Source: Candidatus Iainarchaeum sp. (lineage in GTDB: Archaea > Iainarchaeota > Iainarchaeia > Iainarchaeales > GW2011-AR10). Taken from it: DNA of 33,953 nt. The stretch lies in NCBI GenBank assembly GCA_016198165.1, contig JACQJF010000049.1, positions 1 through 33,953 on the forward strand, read 5' to 3'. Under the pieces are notes generated by a model, which worked only from the letters and a program-made list of their open reading frames with translations, was not told where the DNA came from and did not search any database. Shown here in pieces: positions 2,909-13,222 of the stretch; within the stretch, counting starts at the first letter, position 1; each line of letters starts with the position of its first letter. The position numbers and the translations under genes were made by a program.

Positions 2909-2992
2909 ATATTACCGGGGCCTGTGCAGGGCTAGCGGCCAAGGGTAATACTGTCCTACCGCCCCGTCGCAGACGGGGCCATGCACGCGGTG
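2909..2992 (-). repeat. Dispersed hairpin element, copy 2
   Basis: On the minus strand this reads ACCGCGTGCATG, an 8-bp stem (GCCCCGTC/GACGGGGC, plus positions 2961-2968 and 2972-2979), then a GGTAGGACAGTATTACC linker, then a GC-rich segment closed by GGTAATAT. The TATTACC and GGTAATA ends form an inverted repeat around 2909-2949. The linkers match copy 4 near 11.1 kb almost exactly, while the stem differs but remains complementary. It occupies the leader between tRNA-Ile and ileS. Confidence 0.65.
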
Positions 2993-3032
2993 TGACAACA
3001 AACAGGCAACTGAACAATAACTTCAATGTTTC

Positions 3033-3062: not shown

Positions 3063-3065
3063 CAT

Positions 3066-3177
3066 GGGAATAGGAGGATTTGAACCTCCGACACGTGGCG
3101 CGCTTACGCCAATCAACAAAAAAATTTCCTGAAAGGTGTTATAAGACCACTGCTCTACCAGGCTGAGCTATACTCCC
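3066..3177 (-). tRNA. tRNA-Ile(UAU) with a 39-nt intron
   Basis: A complete cloverleaf can be drawn on the minus strand. The acceptor is GGGAGTA/TATTCCC, the D stem GCTC/GAGC, the anticodon stem GTGGT/GCCAC, and the T arm GGAGG-TTCAAAT-CCTCC. The mature tRNA is 73 nt without CCA. The anticodon loop reads C-T-TAT-A-C once an intron at plus 3101-3139 is removed, giving anticodon UAU and splicing at the canonical 37/38 position. The intron junction forms a textbook bulge-helix-bulge: the 4-bp central helix is CTTA/TAAG, with 3-nt bulges TAA and CGC. The inner helix (CACC against GGCG) has one mismatch. ileS follows downstream. Most archaea read AUA with an agmatidine-modified CAU tRNA, so a UAU tRNA-Ile is uncommon. 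Confidence 0.9.
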
Positions 3178-4193: not shown

Positions 4194-5852
4194 TTACATG
4201 TCCATTCCTTCCATTCCGCCCATGCCGCCGCCCATTCCGGGTGGCATTTTTCCGCCTCCGCCTTTGCTGCTTCCTGCGATGATGTCATCTATTCTCAGGA
4301 GCATTTCCGCGACTTCGGTGGCACTCGTGATTGCCTGTGTTTTGACTGACAATGGCTCAAGCACTTTTTTGCTTTTCATGTTCTCAAGCTTTGCCGCAAA
4401 CACGTCAACCCCGATAAACTGGCCGCCTTTTGCAGAGTGCTTGGAGCGCAATGACACTAAAGTGTCAAGCGGGTCCATTCCAGCGGTTTCTGCCAGTGTG
4501 CGTGGGATTATTTCGAGTGTTTCGGCGAATGCCTCGATTGCGAGCTGTTCGCGGCCCCCGACGGTCTTTGCATAGTTGCGGAGCCTGTGTGCGACTTCGG
4601 CTTCGCAGCTTCCGCCGCCTGCAAGGACTTTTCCATCGCGCAGTGCTGCGGTTGTGGAGCCGATTGCGTCAGTGACTGCGCGTTCTGCCTCGTCTATGAC
4701 GTGCTCTGTCCCGCCCCTGATTAGGAGTGAGACTGCTTTTGGGTTCTTGCACCCTTCGATGAAAGTCATGCTGTCCCCTGCGATTTTTCTTTCGCGAACA
4801 ACCTGTGCTTTTCCGAGGTCCTGTGCTGAAAGGTCCTTTATCCTTGAGACTACGCGTGCGCCTGTTGCGCGGGCGAGTGCATCCATGTCGGATTTTTTCA
4901 CCCTGCGCACTGCAAGGACTCCTTCTTTTGCGAGGTAGTGCTGTGCAATGTCGTCGATTCCCTTCTGGCAGACAAGGACATTTGCCCCCGCTTTTTTCAC
5001 GGTTTCAACCATGTCGCGCAAAATTTTTTCCTCCTGTTCGAGGAATGCCTGCATTTGCTCCGGGTCGGAAATGCTGATTTTAGTGTCGGTCTCTGGTCCC
5101 TTGATTTCAAATGCCGCGTCGACGAGCGCGATTTTCGCGTCCTCGATTCTTTTGGGCATGCCTGAGTGGACGACTTCCTTGTCGACGATTATGCCTTTCA
5201 CGAGTTCGGAGTCTGCCATTGACCCGCCTGCTTTCTTCTCGACTTTGATGTTTTCCTTGTCGATGACTGTTTTTCCTTCCTCTTCGACCGCGACCTGCCT
5301 TACCGCGGTTACGACGAGTCTTGAAAGCTCCTGTGCGCCATCGGCATTCTTGCCGGTCATTGAAGTGAGGGCGATGTCTTCAAGGGTTTTTGAGTCCTTG
5401 AGGTTGAGTGCCTCGGAAATGTCCGCGTACTCTTCCTTTGCCCTCTTGGCTGCAAGCCTGTATCCCTTGATTATGACCGAAGGGTGGATTTCGTCGTCCA
5501 AAAGCTTTTCGGCTTTCTCCAACAGGCCGCCTGCGAATACTGCCGCAGTGGTCGTGCCGTCGCCGACTTCGCTGTCCTGGGTCTTTGCAACCTCCACCAT
5601 CATTTTTCCTGCCGGGTGGTCAATGCTCATCTCGCCAAGGATTGTCGCCCCGTCGTTTGAAATAGTGATGTCCCCAAGGTCATCGACAATCATTTTGTCC
5701 ATTCCCTTCGGGCCAAGCGTGCTCCGCACGGCGTTTGCCACTGCTTTGGCTATGAGGATGTTTATTCTCTGGGCATCCCTGCCCTTTACTCTCTTGCTTC
5801 CCTCTGTCAGGAAGATAACAGGCTGGTTATAGCCCTGTTGATTGTCAGCCAT
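4194..5852 (-). CDS. thsA: Thermosome subunit (group II chaperonin)
   Basis: ATP-driven cytosolic chaperonin that forms a double ring and folds proteins in a closed cavity. The 552-residue product has [10 protein letters not shown] near residue 43, the conserved ATP-binding GDGTTTAAV near residue 97, and a C-terminal Gly-Met-rich tail ([12 protein letters not shown]) typical of thermosomes. Length and composition match the family. The ATG at 5852 is preceded by a strong ribosome binding site, GGGAGGG at plus 5863-5869. Possible TATA elements on the minus strand lie at about 5950-5957 and 5968-5978. Only one subunit gene is present here; others may exist elsewhere. Confidence 0.98.
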
Positions 5853-5978: not shown

Positions 5979-5999
5979 TAATGACTTTTTTGCTGGATA

Positions 6000-6062
6000 T
6001 GGGCTGCAGGCGTCAGCCCGCACCGCGGTTTATGCGCCATCTTGCGATGGCGCGGTAATACA
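6000..6062 (+). repeat. Dispersed hairpin element, copy 3
   Basis: Two hairpins are joined by a conserved linker. GGGCTG/CAGCCC (6001-6006, 6014-6019) is followed by GCACCGCGGTTTATG, then the perfect 8-bp stem GCGCCATC/GATGGCGC (6034-6041, 6046-6053), then GGTAATAC. The ACCGCG...ATG linker and the GGTAATAC end match copies 2 and 4, but both stems have their own sequence. It lies between the divergent thermosome and kinase genes. Confidence 0.65.
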
Positions 6063-6120
6063 ATCCTGAAATCAAAGCGTTTTTTCTGCTTTAAATTTTC
6101 TTTGCAGGGTCATTTTTTTT

Positions 6121-10649: not shown

Positions 10650-11033
10650 GTGGAGCCAAGAAAAGTCCTCGTTTTCGGGAATATACTGCTCAAAGAGGAT
10701 TCCCTTCCCCTGCGCATTATCCCTGCGCTGCGGGAAAAACTGCCGGGTGTTGATTTTGCGGTTTTTGACCCCAACGAACAGCTTGAAAAAGAAGGGCATG
10801 ACCTCGTGATTCTTGACACCGCGCTTGGGATAAAAAAGGTCACCTTGTTTTCCGAAAAAGACCTTGCACGGCTTGAAACCGAGAAGCGCTACTCCGCGCA
10901 CGACTTTGACCTCGGTTTTTCCCTGCGCTTTCTTTTGAAGCTTGGCAAGATAAAGTCCGTGAAGATAATAGGTGTCCCGCCACGCTACCCGGAGAAAAAG
11001 GCAGTGGAGGAAATAGCTGAAATACTTGGATAG
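10650..11033 (+). CDS. HyaD/HycI-like hydrogenase maturation protease family protein
   Basis: A 127-residue alpha/beta protein starting at GTG 10650. It begins VLVFGNILLKEDSLPLRI, matching the GN-x-L-x-x-D-x-G opening of the M52 (COG0680) maturation peptidases. LVILDTALG follows in the second conserved Asp position, then SAHDFDL, equivalent to the conserved His region. Known members cut the C-terminus of hydrogenase large subunits and bind nickel through Asp/His residues. No hydrogenase gene is in the window, so the substrate may be different or encoded elsewhere. The conserved glycine after the first acidic residue is Ser-Leu here. Confidence 0.7.
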   Translation: MEPRKVLVFGNILLKEDSLPLRIIPALREKLPGVDFAVFDPNEQLEKEGHDLVILDTALGIKKVTLFSEKDLARLETEKRYSAHDFDLGFSLRFLLKLGKIKSVKIIGVPPRYPEKKAVEEIAEILG

Positions 11034-11056
11034 CTCCGGAGAGATCCGAAGAACCC
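11032..11056 (-). repeat. Degenerate tRNA-3'-end-like repeat
   Basis: The plus strand TAGCTCCGGAGAGATCCGAA is close to TAGCCCCAGAGAGATTCGAA at 11170-11189. It begins on the stop codon of the HyaD-like gene. On its own it is weak; it is listed because three better copies lie downstream in the same orientation. Confidence 0.35.
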
Positions 11057-11168
11057 TTGCGCGGGTTCACGGCGCGTATGTGCCCTTTCTGTGAAAGGGC
11101 GGTAATACTGTCCTACTGCACCACTGAAAGTGGTGCCATGCACGCGGTACACCCGACCGCAATCGGGT
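11049..11168 (-). repeat. Dispersed hairpin element, copy 4 (four hairpins)
   Basis: Four hairpins in a row with conserved linkers, in plus coordinates: GAACCC/GGGTTC (11051-11056, 11063-11068); GCCCTTTC/GAAAGGGC (11082-11089, 11093-11100); GCACCACT/AGTGGTGC (11118-11125, 11129-11136); ACCCGA/TCGGGT (11151-11156, 11163-11168). On the minus strand the linkers are ACCGCGTGCATG and AGTAGGACAGTATTACC, the same as in copy 2. It sits between two tRNA-like repeats at the left edge of the toxin-antitoxin island. No ORF crosses it convincingly, so it may be a structured RNA or a cruciform-forming DNA element. Confidence 0.7.
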
Positions 11169-11170
11169 AT

Positions 11171-11209
11171 AGCCCCAGAGAGATTCGAACTCTCGCCTTC
11201 CTTTGTCCT
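11171..11209 (-). repeat. tRNA-3'-end-like repeat (putative att site)
   Basis: On the minus strand GAGAG-TTCGAAT-CTCTC is a perfect T arm with the canonical T loop, followed by TGGGGCT, which looks like an acceptor 3' strand. No matching 5' half is present nearby, so this is not a complete tRNA gene. The homology with the copies at 12320 and 13139 continues outside the T arm (TTTGTCC on the plus strand). It marks the left edge of the AT-rich toxin-antitoxin island. Confidence 0.7.
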
Positions 11210-11249
11210 TTTTGACACGTTTTGAATGCCGAATTTTGCTTAAGTAAAC

Positions 11250-11257
11250 TTTAAATA
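11250..11257 (+). promoter_or_regulatory. TATA box of the wHTH/RelE pair
   Basis: TTTAAATA lies about 21-30 nt before the two candidate ATG codons at 11278 and 11287. At normal archaeal spacing the transcript would start almost at the start codon, so the antitoxin mRNA may be leaderless, which favours the second ATG. Confidence 0.45.
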
Positions 11258-11277
11258 TTGTTATCATATATATTTAT

Positions 11278-11562
11278 ATGATTGTTATGGAAGCGAGAAC
11301 CACTGTTTTACATTACCCTCGCCTTGACACGGTTTTGATGGTAGAGGAAGCAATAAAAAAAGCGAAGGATTACCCTTCAAGGACGCAGTTATGGAAAAAA
11401 CTCCCAAAGAAAGTAATGTACCAGACTTACAAAACCGTTATAGATTACCTTATTAATTCAAGAAAAGTAATTCTTACAAAAGACGACAAACTTGTCTGGA
11501 TATTTGCCGACTCGCCAAAAGCCAGAAATCTCATTGAAAAAAGTGTTCCGGCACATGCATGA
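11278..11562 (+). CDS. Winged-helix-like antitoxin of a RelE-type pair
   Basis: 94 residues (91 if translation starts at ATG 11287). The middle reads YPSRTQLWKKLPKKVMYQTYKTVIDYL, a helix-turn-helix-like pattern, followed by SRKVILTKDDKLVWIF, which fits a wing hairpin. It overlaps the toxin gene by 8 nt, the standard arrangement in which a DNA-binding antitoxin precedes its toxin. The antitoxin would neutralise the toxin and repress the operon. The DNA is AT-richer than the surrounding housekeeping genes, consistent with acquisition. The antitoxin role is inferred from position and fold pattern. Confidence 0.65.
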   Translation: MIVMEARTTVLHYPRLDTVLMVEEAIKKAKDYPSRTQLWKKLPKKVMYQTYKTVIDYLINSRKVILTKDDKLVWIFADSPKARNLIEKSVPAHA

Positions 11563-11899
11563 AATACGCTACTCGGAAGAATTCAACAAAGACTATGTGA
11601 AATTAAGGGAAAAGGCGGACAAGGGCAACGGTGAAGCAAAATACCTGCTTGAACTCATAAGCAAAGCAACCGCAAAACTTGCCTTAAACCGGGAGGCAGG
11701 TAAAAAAATTCCACACAAACAATGGCCAAGAGAATACATTGACAAGCATGACGTTACAAACCTCTGGAAACTCAACCTTGACTCATACTGGCGGCTCGTT
11801 TACACAATAACCGGAACAGAAGTCAGCATGTTCCTGATTTACCTGGAATACTTAAACCACAAAGAATATGACAGAAAATTCAAGTACAAAACGAGCTGA
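11555..11899 (+). CDS. RelE/ParE-superfamily toxin
   Basis: 114 residues from ATG 11555; a longer frame exists, but MHEIRYSEEFNKDYVKL is the natural RelE-type opening (strand 1 then helix 1). The family features continue with a long helical hairpin (YLLELISKATAKLAL), DVTNLWKLNLDSYWRLVYTI, and a C-terminal YLEYLNHKEYDRKF. RelE toxins cut mRNA on the ribosome; which catalytic residues are used varies, and here Arg, Lys and Tyr residues in the last third are candidates. The start overlaps the antitoxin stop. The last 15 codons are duplicated, in diverged form, at 13021-13065. Confidence 0.8.
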   Translation: MHEIRYSEEFNKDYVKLREKADKGNGEAKYLLELISKATAKLALNREAGKKIPHKQWPREYIDKHDVTNLWKLNLDSYWRLVYTITGTEVSMFLIYLEYLNHKEYDRKFKYKTS

Positions 11900-11904
11900 A
11901 AAAA

Positions 11905-12222
11905 TTATTTTTTGTCAGTTACACGCCTGCCAGAAGAAATTCGTCTATCACTTCCAAGTCTTCTATCAAAAAAAACTATGCGATGATCTTGATACCTCTC
12001 AGGGTGGGCAAGAATTTCTCCTAAGCCTACTTCTTCATCAAACAATCTCCTGTTCCTAACAAACACTCTTGAAGGCTTGATTTTCAACCGTAAAAAATCT
12101 TGCAAACCCATTGAAACATAAGACTGTTCCTCTTCGCCCAAGATATTAATACGTCCAACTTGCTTCCTTCTTCTGTTAACTGGATGGCGCCTTGGATTTA
12201 CCATTCGATGAATTAACGGCAA
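11905..12222 (-). CDS. Hypothetical Arg-rich protein in the toxin-antitoxin island
   Basis: About 105 residues from TTG 12222, which follows an AGGTGAT ribosome binding site; GTG 12231 overlaps that site. The protein has a basic N-terminus (NPRRHPVNRRRKQVGR), a middle part with EEEQSYVSMGLQDFLRLKI, and a C-terminal repeat-like run DRRLGSDRRISSGRR. A TATA-like CTATATATG lies upstream on the minus strand near 12250. It is convergent with the RelE toxin, whose terminator falls in its 3' end. I recognise no family. It may be cargo of the same mobile cassette. Confidence 0.5.
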   Translation of the reverse strand: MPLIHRMVNPRRHPVNRRRKQVGRINILGEEEQSYVSMGLQDFLRLKIKPSRVFVRNRRLFDEEVGLGEILAHPERYQDHRIVFFDRRLGSDRRISSGRRVTDKK

Positions 12223-12319
12223 AAAAATCACCTAAATACCATACCACTATAGCATATATAGAAGTAATGCCTGTTAAAATTTCAAAAAAAAACCTGCAAA
12301 ATTTGTTTGTAGGCGTGCC

Positions 12320-12375
12320 AAATCGGACGATAGCCCCCAGAGAGATTCGAACTCTCGTGGGTAGTTGTCCGATTT
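12320..12375 (-). repeat. tRNA-3'-end-like repeat inside a long inverted repeat
   Basis: The T arm GAGAG-TTCGAAT-CTCTC (minus strand, plus positions 12340-12356) with acceptor-like TGGGGGCT is enclosed by the 9-bp inverted repeat AAATCGGAC (12320-12328) and GTCCGATTT (12367-12375). Extra CCC/GGG pairing lies between them, so the whole 56 nt folds as one rod-like hairpin. It separates the RelE-type and PemK-type cassettes. Its right arm GTCCGATTT recurs at 13172-13180, and its left flank TGCCAAATCGGAC is the reverse complement of sequence there. Confidence 0.7.
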
Positions 12376-12464
12376 AGTACAGCAGGAACAAAAAAATTCA
12401 GGCTCTCGCTTTTTATGCAAACCATTTTAATTTGGTTGCACATAATAGTTATAAATTGGTTTAA

Positions 12465-12653
12465 ATGGGTAATGAAAAAAGCGTGACTTTAATCCAAGTT
12501 TACAAAAAACTTGAAAACCTTGAAAAATTAATCAAAAAAATTGAAAAACATGAAACCCAAGATGGAAGAAAGGAAATTCATTTCCTGAAAGCTTCCGAGT
12601 CAAGTATTGCATTTTGGGACAACGAAGAAGACGAGATCTGGAATGAGTTATAA
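12465..12653 (+). CDS. PemI-like antitoxin
   Basis: A 62-residue protein with a coiled-coil N-terminal half (IQVYKKLENLEKLIKKIEKH) and a C-terminal tail SSIAFWDNEEDEIWNEL. This type of tail, FWDN-x-EDE-(V/I)-(W/Y), is common in short antitoxins paired with PemK/MazF toxins. It probably inserts into the toxin's RNA-binding groove. The toxin start overlaps the last 11 nt. There is no separate DNA-binding domain, so autoregulation may be weak. Base composition is AT-rich like the rest of the island. Confidence 0.75.
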   Translation: MGNEKSVTLIQVYKKLENLEKLIKKIEKHETQDGRKEIHFLKASESSIAFWDNEEDEIWNEL

Positions 12654-12987
12654 CCAACGCGAAATTGTGCTTGTACCATTTCCATTTACCGACCTCTCTT
12701 CAATCAAGCAAAGACCCGCATTAATAATTTCAACAAATTCTTTCAATGAAAGAGAAGATGTTTTTGTTCTTGCAATAACTTCAAAAATCAAGCAAGACAA
12801 GTTTCGCATAACAATTTCTCAAAAAGAACTTGAAACCGGAAACCTGCTTTTGACAAGCCAAGTCCGATGCGACAAAATCTATACAATCAACAAATCAATA
12901 ATAAGAAAAAAAATAGCAAAAATAAACGAAGAAACCTTTGAACAAATTATTGCTTTTTTTGAAAAAACCTATAAAAACAAACAATAA
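12643..12987 (+). CDS. PemK/MazF-family toxin endoribonuclease
   Basis: 114 residues from ATG 12643; the reading frame is open further upstream, but that part overlaps the antitoxin. It begins YNQREIVLVPFPFTDLSS and continues KQRPALIISTN, the hallmark opening of PemK/MazF proteins, in which the Arg-Pro after the loop is near the active site. VFVLAITSKI and LLLTSQVRCDKIYTI follow in the order expected. These toxins cut single-stranded mRNA at short motifs. The gene overlaps its antitoxin by 11 nt. Its downstream flank carries the relic of another RelE gene. Confidence 0.9.
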   Translation: MSYNQREIVLVPFPFTDLSSIKQRPALIISTNSFNEREDVFVLAITSKIKQDKFRITISQKELETGNLLLTSQVRCDKIYTINKSIIRKKIAKINEETFEQIIAFFEKTYKNKQ

Positions 12988-13020
12988 AACTTATGGCCGA
13001 AATAAAACGTAGAAAATTTA

Positions 13021-13065
13021 GGCCACAAAAACTACGACAGAAAACTCGGATACAAAACGAGCTGA
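13021..13065 (+). pseudogene. Remnant 3' end of a second RelE-type toxin gene
   Basis: In frame this encodes GHKNYDRKLGYKTS and a TGA stop, matching the intact toxin end NHKEYDRKFKYKTS at 11855-11899. DNA identity extends into the shared tail ACGAGCTGAAAAAATTATTTTTT. Upstream there is a stop codon at 13003 and no further similarity, so only the last codons survive. It indicates a former RelE cassette at this place. Confidence 0.75.
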
Positions 13066-13138
13066 AAAAAATTATTTTTTTGGTTTTTGTACAGATTTAC
13101 TGGAAAGAAGTTTTCGGAGTTTTCTTTTAGCTCTTTTA

Positions 13139-13180
13139 ATAGCCTCGGGTAGATTCGAGTTCTCGTGGCTTGTCCGATTT
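13139..13180 (-). repeat. Diverged tRNA-3'-end-like repeat (right edge of island)
   Basis: AGCCTCGGGTAGATTCGAG on the plus strand, then TTCTCGTGGCTTGTCCGATTT, aligns with 12331-12375 in the same orientation, including the GTCCGATTT arm, although the T-arm pairing is partly lost. It closes the AT-rich island about 260 nt before cdc6. Confidence 0.55.
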
Positions 13181-13222
13181 GGCATTGCTGTTATAAAAAA
13201 TTGCAGGGTAGGGGGAATTTGG

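Follow-up and report, generated by a model that had tools for sequence, protein, structure and literature searches.

Toxin–antitoxin (TA) gene pairs are dispersed over archaeal genomes, and little is understood of how they spread. We analysed a stretch of 33,953 nucleotides (the window), the 34-kb contig C18 of a 961-kb, 66-contig assembly (the window genome, G000) that comes from a small groundwater-type archaeon and is estimated to be 67% complete. At positions 11170–13190 the window holds two TA cassettes in tandem, each bounded by copies of the 3′ end of a glutamine tRNA (tRNA-Gln) gene. The comparison set comprised 87 genomes of the phylum (Diapherotrites). The same family includes archaeon GW2011_AR10 (AR10, G002; complete chromosome CP010424.1) and NC_groundwater_502 (G003), the latter representing a third genus, and genome G001 belongs to the same genus as the window genome.

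Organization of the array

The repeated unit, referred to here as the core, consists of the T arm and acceptor end of tRNA-Gln and is read on the minus strand as CGAGAGTTCGAATCTCTCYGGGGCTA or a degenerate form of it. The cores, the inverted arms P and P′ beside them and the genes between them are as follows.

11031–11050, minus strand: partial tRNA-Gln 3′ end (TTCGGATCTCTCCGGAGCTA on the minus strand, T-loop onward); by its aligned junctions the outer end of an inverted pair of the structured repeat RU
11170–11195, minus strand: site 18a, displaced tRNA-Gln 3′ end with one mismatch to TAGCCCCGGAGAGATTCGAACTCTCG; left (attR-like) end of cassette 1
11203–11217, plus strand: arm P of site 18a, TTGTCCTTTTTGACA
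11278–11562, plus strand: winged helix-turn-helix (wHTH)-like antitoxin, cassette 1
11555–11899, plus strand: RelE/ParE-type toxin, cassette 1; ATG at 11555 chosen from the frame (the listed open reading frame, ORF, starts at 11492)
11905–12231, minus strand: small ORF of 108 amino acids, function unknown, tail of cassette 1
12318–12335, plus strand: arm P′ of site 18b, CCAAATCGGACGATAGCC
12332–12357, minus strand: site 18b, tRNA-Gln 3′ end between the two tandem cassettes with arms on both sides (attP-like)
12365–12379, plus strand: arm P of site 18b, TTGTCCGATTTAGTA
12465–12653, plus strand: PemI-like antitoxin, cassette 2, named from its position before and overlapping PemK
12643–12987, plus strand: PemK/MazF toxin, cassette 2 (Pfam PemK_toxin, E 3.5e-21); ATG at 12643 chosen from the frame (listed ORF from 12607)
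13007–13079, plus strand: remnant of a RelE toxin gene (its 3′ end), following PemK and 78% identical to 11841–11913
13140–13164, minus strand: site 18c, degenerate tRNA-Gln 3′ end, right end of cassette 2
13170–13184, plus strand: arm P of site 18c, TTGTCCGATTTGGCA, with a shortened spacer

A perfect T arm, GAGAGATTCGAACTCTC, is found at 11170–11195 and 12332–12357, where the minus strand reads GAGAG-TTCGAAT-CTCTC. The copy at 13140–13164 is degenerate, with five mismatches in 25, and that at 11031–11050 matches from the T-loop onward only. The repeats are real and not due to chance: a 23-mer allowing up to six mismatches occurs three times, compared with 0.07 times in dinucleotide shuffles, and a 17-mer occurs twice exactly, compared with 0.12 expected even at up to three mismatches. 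Where the identical 26-mer occurs in relatives, it mostly forms the 3′ end of an intact tRNA-Gln gene (CTG or TTG). An earlier, sequence-only reading of the window had placed four repeat sites at these positions, and all four exist; its three clear copies and one weak copy are, however, two clear, one degenerate and one partial. The shared sequence that it saw beyond the T arm is present as an arm right of the core, but the copy at 11032 lacks the TTGTCC/GATTT part. Likewise, the copies at 11170, 12332 and 13140 do enclose the cassettes, whereas that at 11032 is not a boundary and belongs to the RU pair. No 5′ half of a tRNA accompanies the copies in the window, as that reading had stated.

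Arms P and P′ are inverted copies of CAAATCGGACAA (the arm and its complement) placed symmetrically about the T-loop. Arm P, TTGTCCGATTTGACA, stands 7–8 nt right of the core at 11203 and 12365 and follows a shorter spacer at 13170. Arm P′, CCAAATCGGACRATAGCC, stands left of the core and is present in the window as CCAAATCGGACGATAGCC at 12318. The site at 12318–12379 carries both arms, of 9 bp each and 38 nt apart, with the T-loop central between them (18.5 of 38), and is therefore as expected of a junction between two tandem insertions. Within the window the 12-nt arm (at most one mismatch) is restricted to these sites. In the phylum, arm P′ together with the core occurs in three of the 87 genomes (the window genome, AR10 and G003) and the core with arm P in two (the window genome and AR10), all of one family. 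Five copies in the window genome carry arm P, namely 18a, 18b, 18c and one each on contigs C45 and C15, and four of these five are followed by a TA pair (with RelE, PemK, RelE and PIN toxins).

Measured from core to core, cassette 1 is 1162 bp and cassette 2 is 808 bp in length. The cassette 1 antitoxin has no match in Pfam or NCBIfam; it is predicted to fold as an H-H-H-E-E winged helix (mean predicted local distance difference test score 75), finds weak winged-helix matches in the PDB and belongs to a family that is conserved beside the toxin. This wHTH/RelE family is present in 57 of the 87 genomes. The cassette 1 toxin scores above the cut-off for Pfam ParE_toxin and slightly below that for RelE_StbE. 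No significant family match was obtained for the PemI-like antitoxin of cassette 2. The toxins fall in type II families, with ParE_toxin and PemK_toxin above their cut-offs and PIN_2 for the cassette on C15, and the toxin matches agree with the wHTH/RelE and PemI/PemK cassettes named in the sequence-only reading. The cassettes hold only TA genes and small ORFs; as previously noted, there is no integrase gene inside them. Behind PemK, the remnant at 13007–13079, which also matches the tails of RelE genes at other loci, suggests that the cargo was swapped inside a RelE cassette, with PemI-like/PemK replacing RelE, since the tail of the lost RelE gene is still in place.

Related loci in the family

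The AR10 chromosome carries the same wHTH/RelE pair at an occupied tRNA-Gln locus (L079). On the plus strand, a displaced tRNA-Gln end at 4273 is followed by arm P at 4306, the wHTH antitoxin (4370–4660), the RelE toxin (4657–5010), a small ORF, arm P′ at 5402 and an intact tRNA-Gln(CTG) gene on the minus strand at 5414–5488; the cassette measures 1142 bp from core to core. The intact tRNA and, at the opposite end, the equally oriented displaced 3′ fragment form the attL/attR geometry; integration into a tRNA 3′ end characteristically leaves a restored gene and a displaced fragment on its two sides (PMC4383910). The window, in contrast, has displaced ends alone. The earlier suggestion of serial insertion at a tRNA-derived att sequence is supported; in AR10, intact tRNA-Gln, a 1.14-kb TA cassette and displaced 3′ end stand in order. 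The displaced AR10 copy is a hybrid: its G at position 49 agrees with the elements and its G at position 65 with the host. The pattern suggests a crossover within AGAGTTCGAATCTCT, although it finds no confirmation in the intact copy. No integrase lies inside the AR10 cassette, and the sole PF00589 gene found in AR10 is the distant XerA at 978 kb.

Uninterrupted targets are found in two relatives. The tRNA-Gln(TTG) gene of G003 carries the flank of 18a with no cassette between, and the tRNA-Gln(CTG) gene of G001 likewise carries the flank of the C15 copy. The left flank of 18a aligns with the downstream flank of the G003 gene with a score of 91, compared with at most 27 for shuffled sequences, and by this alignment it is the ancestral downstream flank of tRNA-Gln(TTG). 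The partial copy at 11031–11050 is homologous to the sequence at the same position downstream of the G003 gene.

Five further core copies lie outside the window, comprising the displaced copy in AR10 and copies on contigs C8, C20, C45 and C15 of the window genome, these four being without a tRNA 5′ half. The cassette on C45 is 92% identical in DNA to the AR10 cassette over 743 nt, from the core to just past the toxin stop codon, and the encoded proteins are 94 and 97% identical. The neighbouring gene pdxS is 72% identical in protein to that of AR10 and 92% to that of G001. Judged by these identities, the C45-type cassette moved horizontally, because its DNA is 92% identical to the AR10 copy although the adjacent pdxS reaches only 72% in protein. 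On C15, arm P is accompanied by a PIN-type toxin pair that is truncated where the contig stops.

On the right, homology with G001 begins just beyond 18c (at 13197) and, similarly, just beyond the C45 cassette. As the array lacks a tRNA end right of 18c, its tRNA-bearing end is lost or off the contig. The genes topA and cdc6 are close neighbours in G001 but are separated in the window genome, where C15 carries topA and C18 carries cdc6; both contigs bear tRNA-Gln fragment sites, which suggests that rearrangement took place there. No DNA match to the left flanks of C45, C15, C18, C8 and C20 was found in G001, so that the nearest genome offers no clean empty-site comparison.

Behind each of the two intron-bearing tRNA-Gln genes of G003 (L080 and L081) come an RU-type unit, an incomplete tRNA 3′ end and arm P′; the unknown ORFs that follow are truncated by contig ends. 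Other cargo may thus be carried by elements that share this arm.

Origin of the cassettes

We consider that the cassettes are probably non-autonomous elements inserted site-specifically at the T-loop of tRNA-Gln, mobilized by a tyrosine integrase acting in trans and accreted serially. Small elements would enter the 3′ end of the gene by site-specific recombination at the T arm. Each would bring its own tRNA 3′ end, and insertion would restore the tRNA and push the old end downstream; repetition of this process would build a tandem array such as that at 11170–13190. The arms around the core are putative integrase-binding sites. The integrase would be supplied by another element in the cell, because the elements carry a type II TA pair and no integrase of their own. 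The TA pair would guard the DNA against loss, and addiction may be the reason for its persistence.

Several observations weigh against this explanation. The array is not seen joined to its tRNA. An intact tRNA-Gln with this 3′ end, the search for which the sequence-only reading had proposed as a check, is absent from the tRNA genes detected in the assembled 961 kb (67% completeness) and is known from the relatives alone. On C8 and C20, arm P′ and the core stand without the 5′ half of a tRNA, and the C45 copy lacks a right-hand site; some copies have thus undergone rearrangement. The 87 genomes, viral contigs, phages and plasmids yielded no element that combines these arms with an integrase. 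Finally, TA pairs of this family are usually located away from such sites: the arms are missing from all 28 further loci examined in the phylum, of which one contains an unrelated T arm. By this comparison, the tRNA ends and arms belong to a carrier element in this family and not to the TA module itself, because the 28 loci do without them. An antitoxin at G067:C81:3081–3356 (L145), 87% identical to that of the window, comes from another family of the phylum and has neither tRNA ends nor arms beside it; TA pairs would therefore also spread by other routes. Relatives of the antitoxin were absent from phages and viral contigs.

The cassettes could instead be shrunken remains of larger integrative elements, which lost the integrase and kept the att ends and an addictive TA pair, and which now move with a neighbour's help or not at all. 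Such relics would resemble cis-mobilizable elements (CIMEs), which by definition have lost their integration genes, retain attL and attR and accrete in tandem (PMC5704250). The cassettes keep their att sites and have neither integration nor transfer genes. They are stacked at the 3′ end of the target gene as CIMEs are, but they differ in being approximately 1 kb in length with little beyond the TA pair, in their archaeal host and in having no known parent integrative and conjugative element or integrative mobilizable element (ICE/IME); the phylum, viral contigs, phages and plasmids gave no larger element with these arms. Decay would account for the RelE remnant, as a rearrangement inside a cassette, and for the incomplete sites 18c, C8, C20 and C45, and it fits with the TA unit common to different families being only about 650 bp (11250–11904 in the window) and free of arms. 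On the other hand, the known lengths (1142 bp in AR10, 1162 and 808 bp in the window) all lie near 1 kb, C45 and AR10 share a segment that starts at the tRNA end and does not extend past the toxin stop, which fits transfer at small size, and no remnant of a gene of a larger element was recognized between the sites. We regard decay as a rather unlikely origin, albeit one to be taken seriously. It bears on the earlier proposal that each TA pair is a minimal mobile unit: the TA pairs are the cargo, but their status as units is not established, since a larger element could have decayed around an addictive TA pair and since pairs of this family at the 28 other loci lack the arms.

The remaining explanations are less probable still. 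TA pairs might have landed among tRNA-Gln fragments and spread by homologous recombination between these, with no site-specific recombinase. Several copies do lie away from tRNA genes, and the flanks suggest rearrangement, homology with G001 resuming just right of 18c and of the C45 cassette. This is nevertheless improbable, as AR10 has exactly one intact tRNA and one correctly oriented displaced end with arms on the element side of both, and arms at fixed spacing symmetric about the T-loop would not be expected. It is also very doubtful that the array is a cluster of integron attC sites without an integron integrase, the likeness to tRNA being incidental. The consensus of the attC R″/R′ boxes is RYYYAAC/GTTRRRY; compared with it by eye, the outer arms AAATCGGAC/GTCCGATTT show no R boxes. 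The core is moreover tRNA-Gln sequence and is joined to an intact tRNA-Gln in AR10, and four integrases of the lineage and the AR10 XerA fall below the cut-off for TIGR02249 (integron integrase) or do not match it, the window genome being incomplete. The resemblance lies in tandem TA cassettes of one orientation separated by sites that can fold as hairpins, and integrons and attC clusters do occur in archaea (PMC9668308). Those attC clusters without IntI likewise consist of tandem small-gene cassettes, uniformly oriented and perhaps mobilized in trans, but here the cassette site is tRNA-derived and no IntI was found. An artefact of metagenome assembly is scarcely credible: although several copies are near contig ends, sites 18a–18c lie in the middle of a 34-kb contig and the same architecture is present in the complete AR10 chromosome.

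The cassettes resemble several other known systems in part. Tracts found by Islander have, as in AR10, a regenerated tRNA on one side and a displaced fragment on the other, but that search requires an integrase inside the island and would filter these cassettes out (PMC4383910). Integrated elements of Thaumarchaeota also occupy tRNA 3′ ends, and one is reported to hold a VapBC pair; the smallest cryptic integrated element listed there, however, measures 2.6 kb, and no gene of that class is more conserved than the integrase (PMC6563490). At the tRNA-Thr locus of Caldiarchaeum, a mobile element lies at an archaeal tRNA gene and tRNA fragments are left about the genome, but the 1.8-kb insert is predicted to encode a recombinase and the fragment is a 5′ one (PMC3293823). 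Phage Ms6 has its attB in the T-loop at the 3′ end of tRNA-Ala, but it is a mycobacteriophage and not an integrase-free element (PMC1762012).

More tentatively, we propose that integrase-free, TA-only elements of about 1 kb may travel between genera and insert serially at the tRNA-Gln T-loop with a recombinase in trans, forming an integron-like system with a tRNA acceptor site; this is possible, but we hold it with limited confidence. Their movement has left a readable footprint: the ends are exact, the target is a tRNA, candidate arms for a recombinase are present, and a second genus has a nearly identical cassette. If movement occurs at this size, few described tRNA-integrated elements would be smaller, and it would follow that a TA pair alone can act as a selfish integrated unit with a borrowed integrase. 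Searches for islands that require an integrase miss such cassettes.

Tyrosine integrases adjacent to tRNA genes or T arms do occur in the lineage. One tRNA-Ser gene is found twice in the window genome with the same 5′ flank: the copy at G000:C46:1515–1598 (L118) is followed by a tyrosine integrase gene and that at G000:C24:35–118 (L004) by a different, empty-looking sequence, which suggests that the population includes an occupied as well as an empty form of an integrated element. Another tyrosine integrase of 455 amino acids (G000:C16:1969–3336, L117), with no T arm found nearby, is 43% identical to the one at tRNA-Ser and is a candidate for the enzyme acting in trans.

The RU repeat and other tRNA observations

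The copy at 11032 is the end of an inverted pair of RU repeats, supported by covariation.

11046–11114, plus strand: RU copy 1 of the inverted pair; model match of 82.9 bits, E 9e-20 (the copy is in the alignment of the model)
11104–11173, minus strand: RU copy 2 of the inverted pair; model match of 61.5 bits, E 6e-14 (likewise in the alignment)

RU consists of two hairpins with possible loop pairing (a possible pseudoknot); 69 cells of the alignment are changed on both sides, compared with 19 in shuffles, and there is no match in Rfam. Among the copies listed there are at least 56 in the window genome, 37 in G001 and 15 in AR10, and two more in the window lie at 2947–3012 and 5996–6067. Eight of the at least 56 copies in the window genome are within 150 nt of a tRNA gene or tRNA-like match, compared with 0.66 expected (p ~3e-7), and other copies are inside tRNA introns.

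Three other interpretations of the tRNA-like sequences were rejected. A tRNA-Glu-like gene at 11032–11170 is excluded in that the region is the inverted RU pair. Split or trans-spliced tRNA halves do not fit T arms that adjoin TA genes without a 5′ half, nor the AR10 gene that is intact beside its copy. A T arm serving as an RNA-processing signal for the TA transcripts would not lie, as here, on the strand opposite the TA genes. Elsewhere in the window, a tRNA gene missed by ARAGORN is present on the minus strand at 3065–3177; it is probably intron-bearing, because its match to the tRNA model spans 113 nt.

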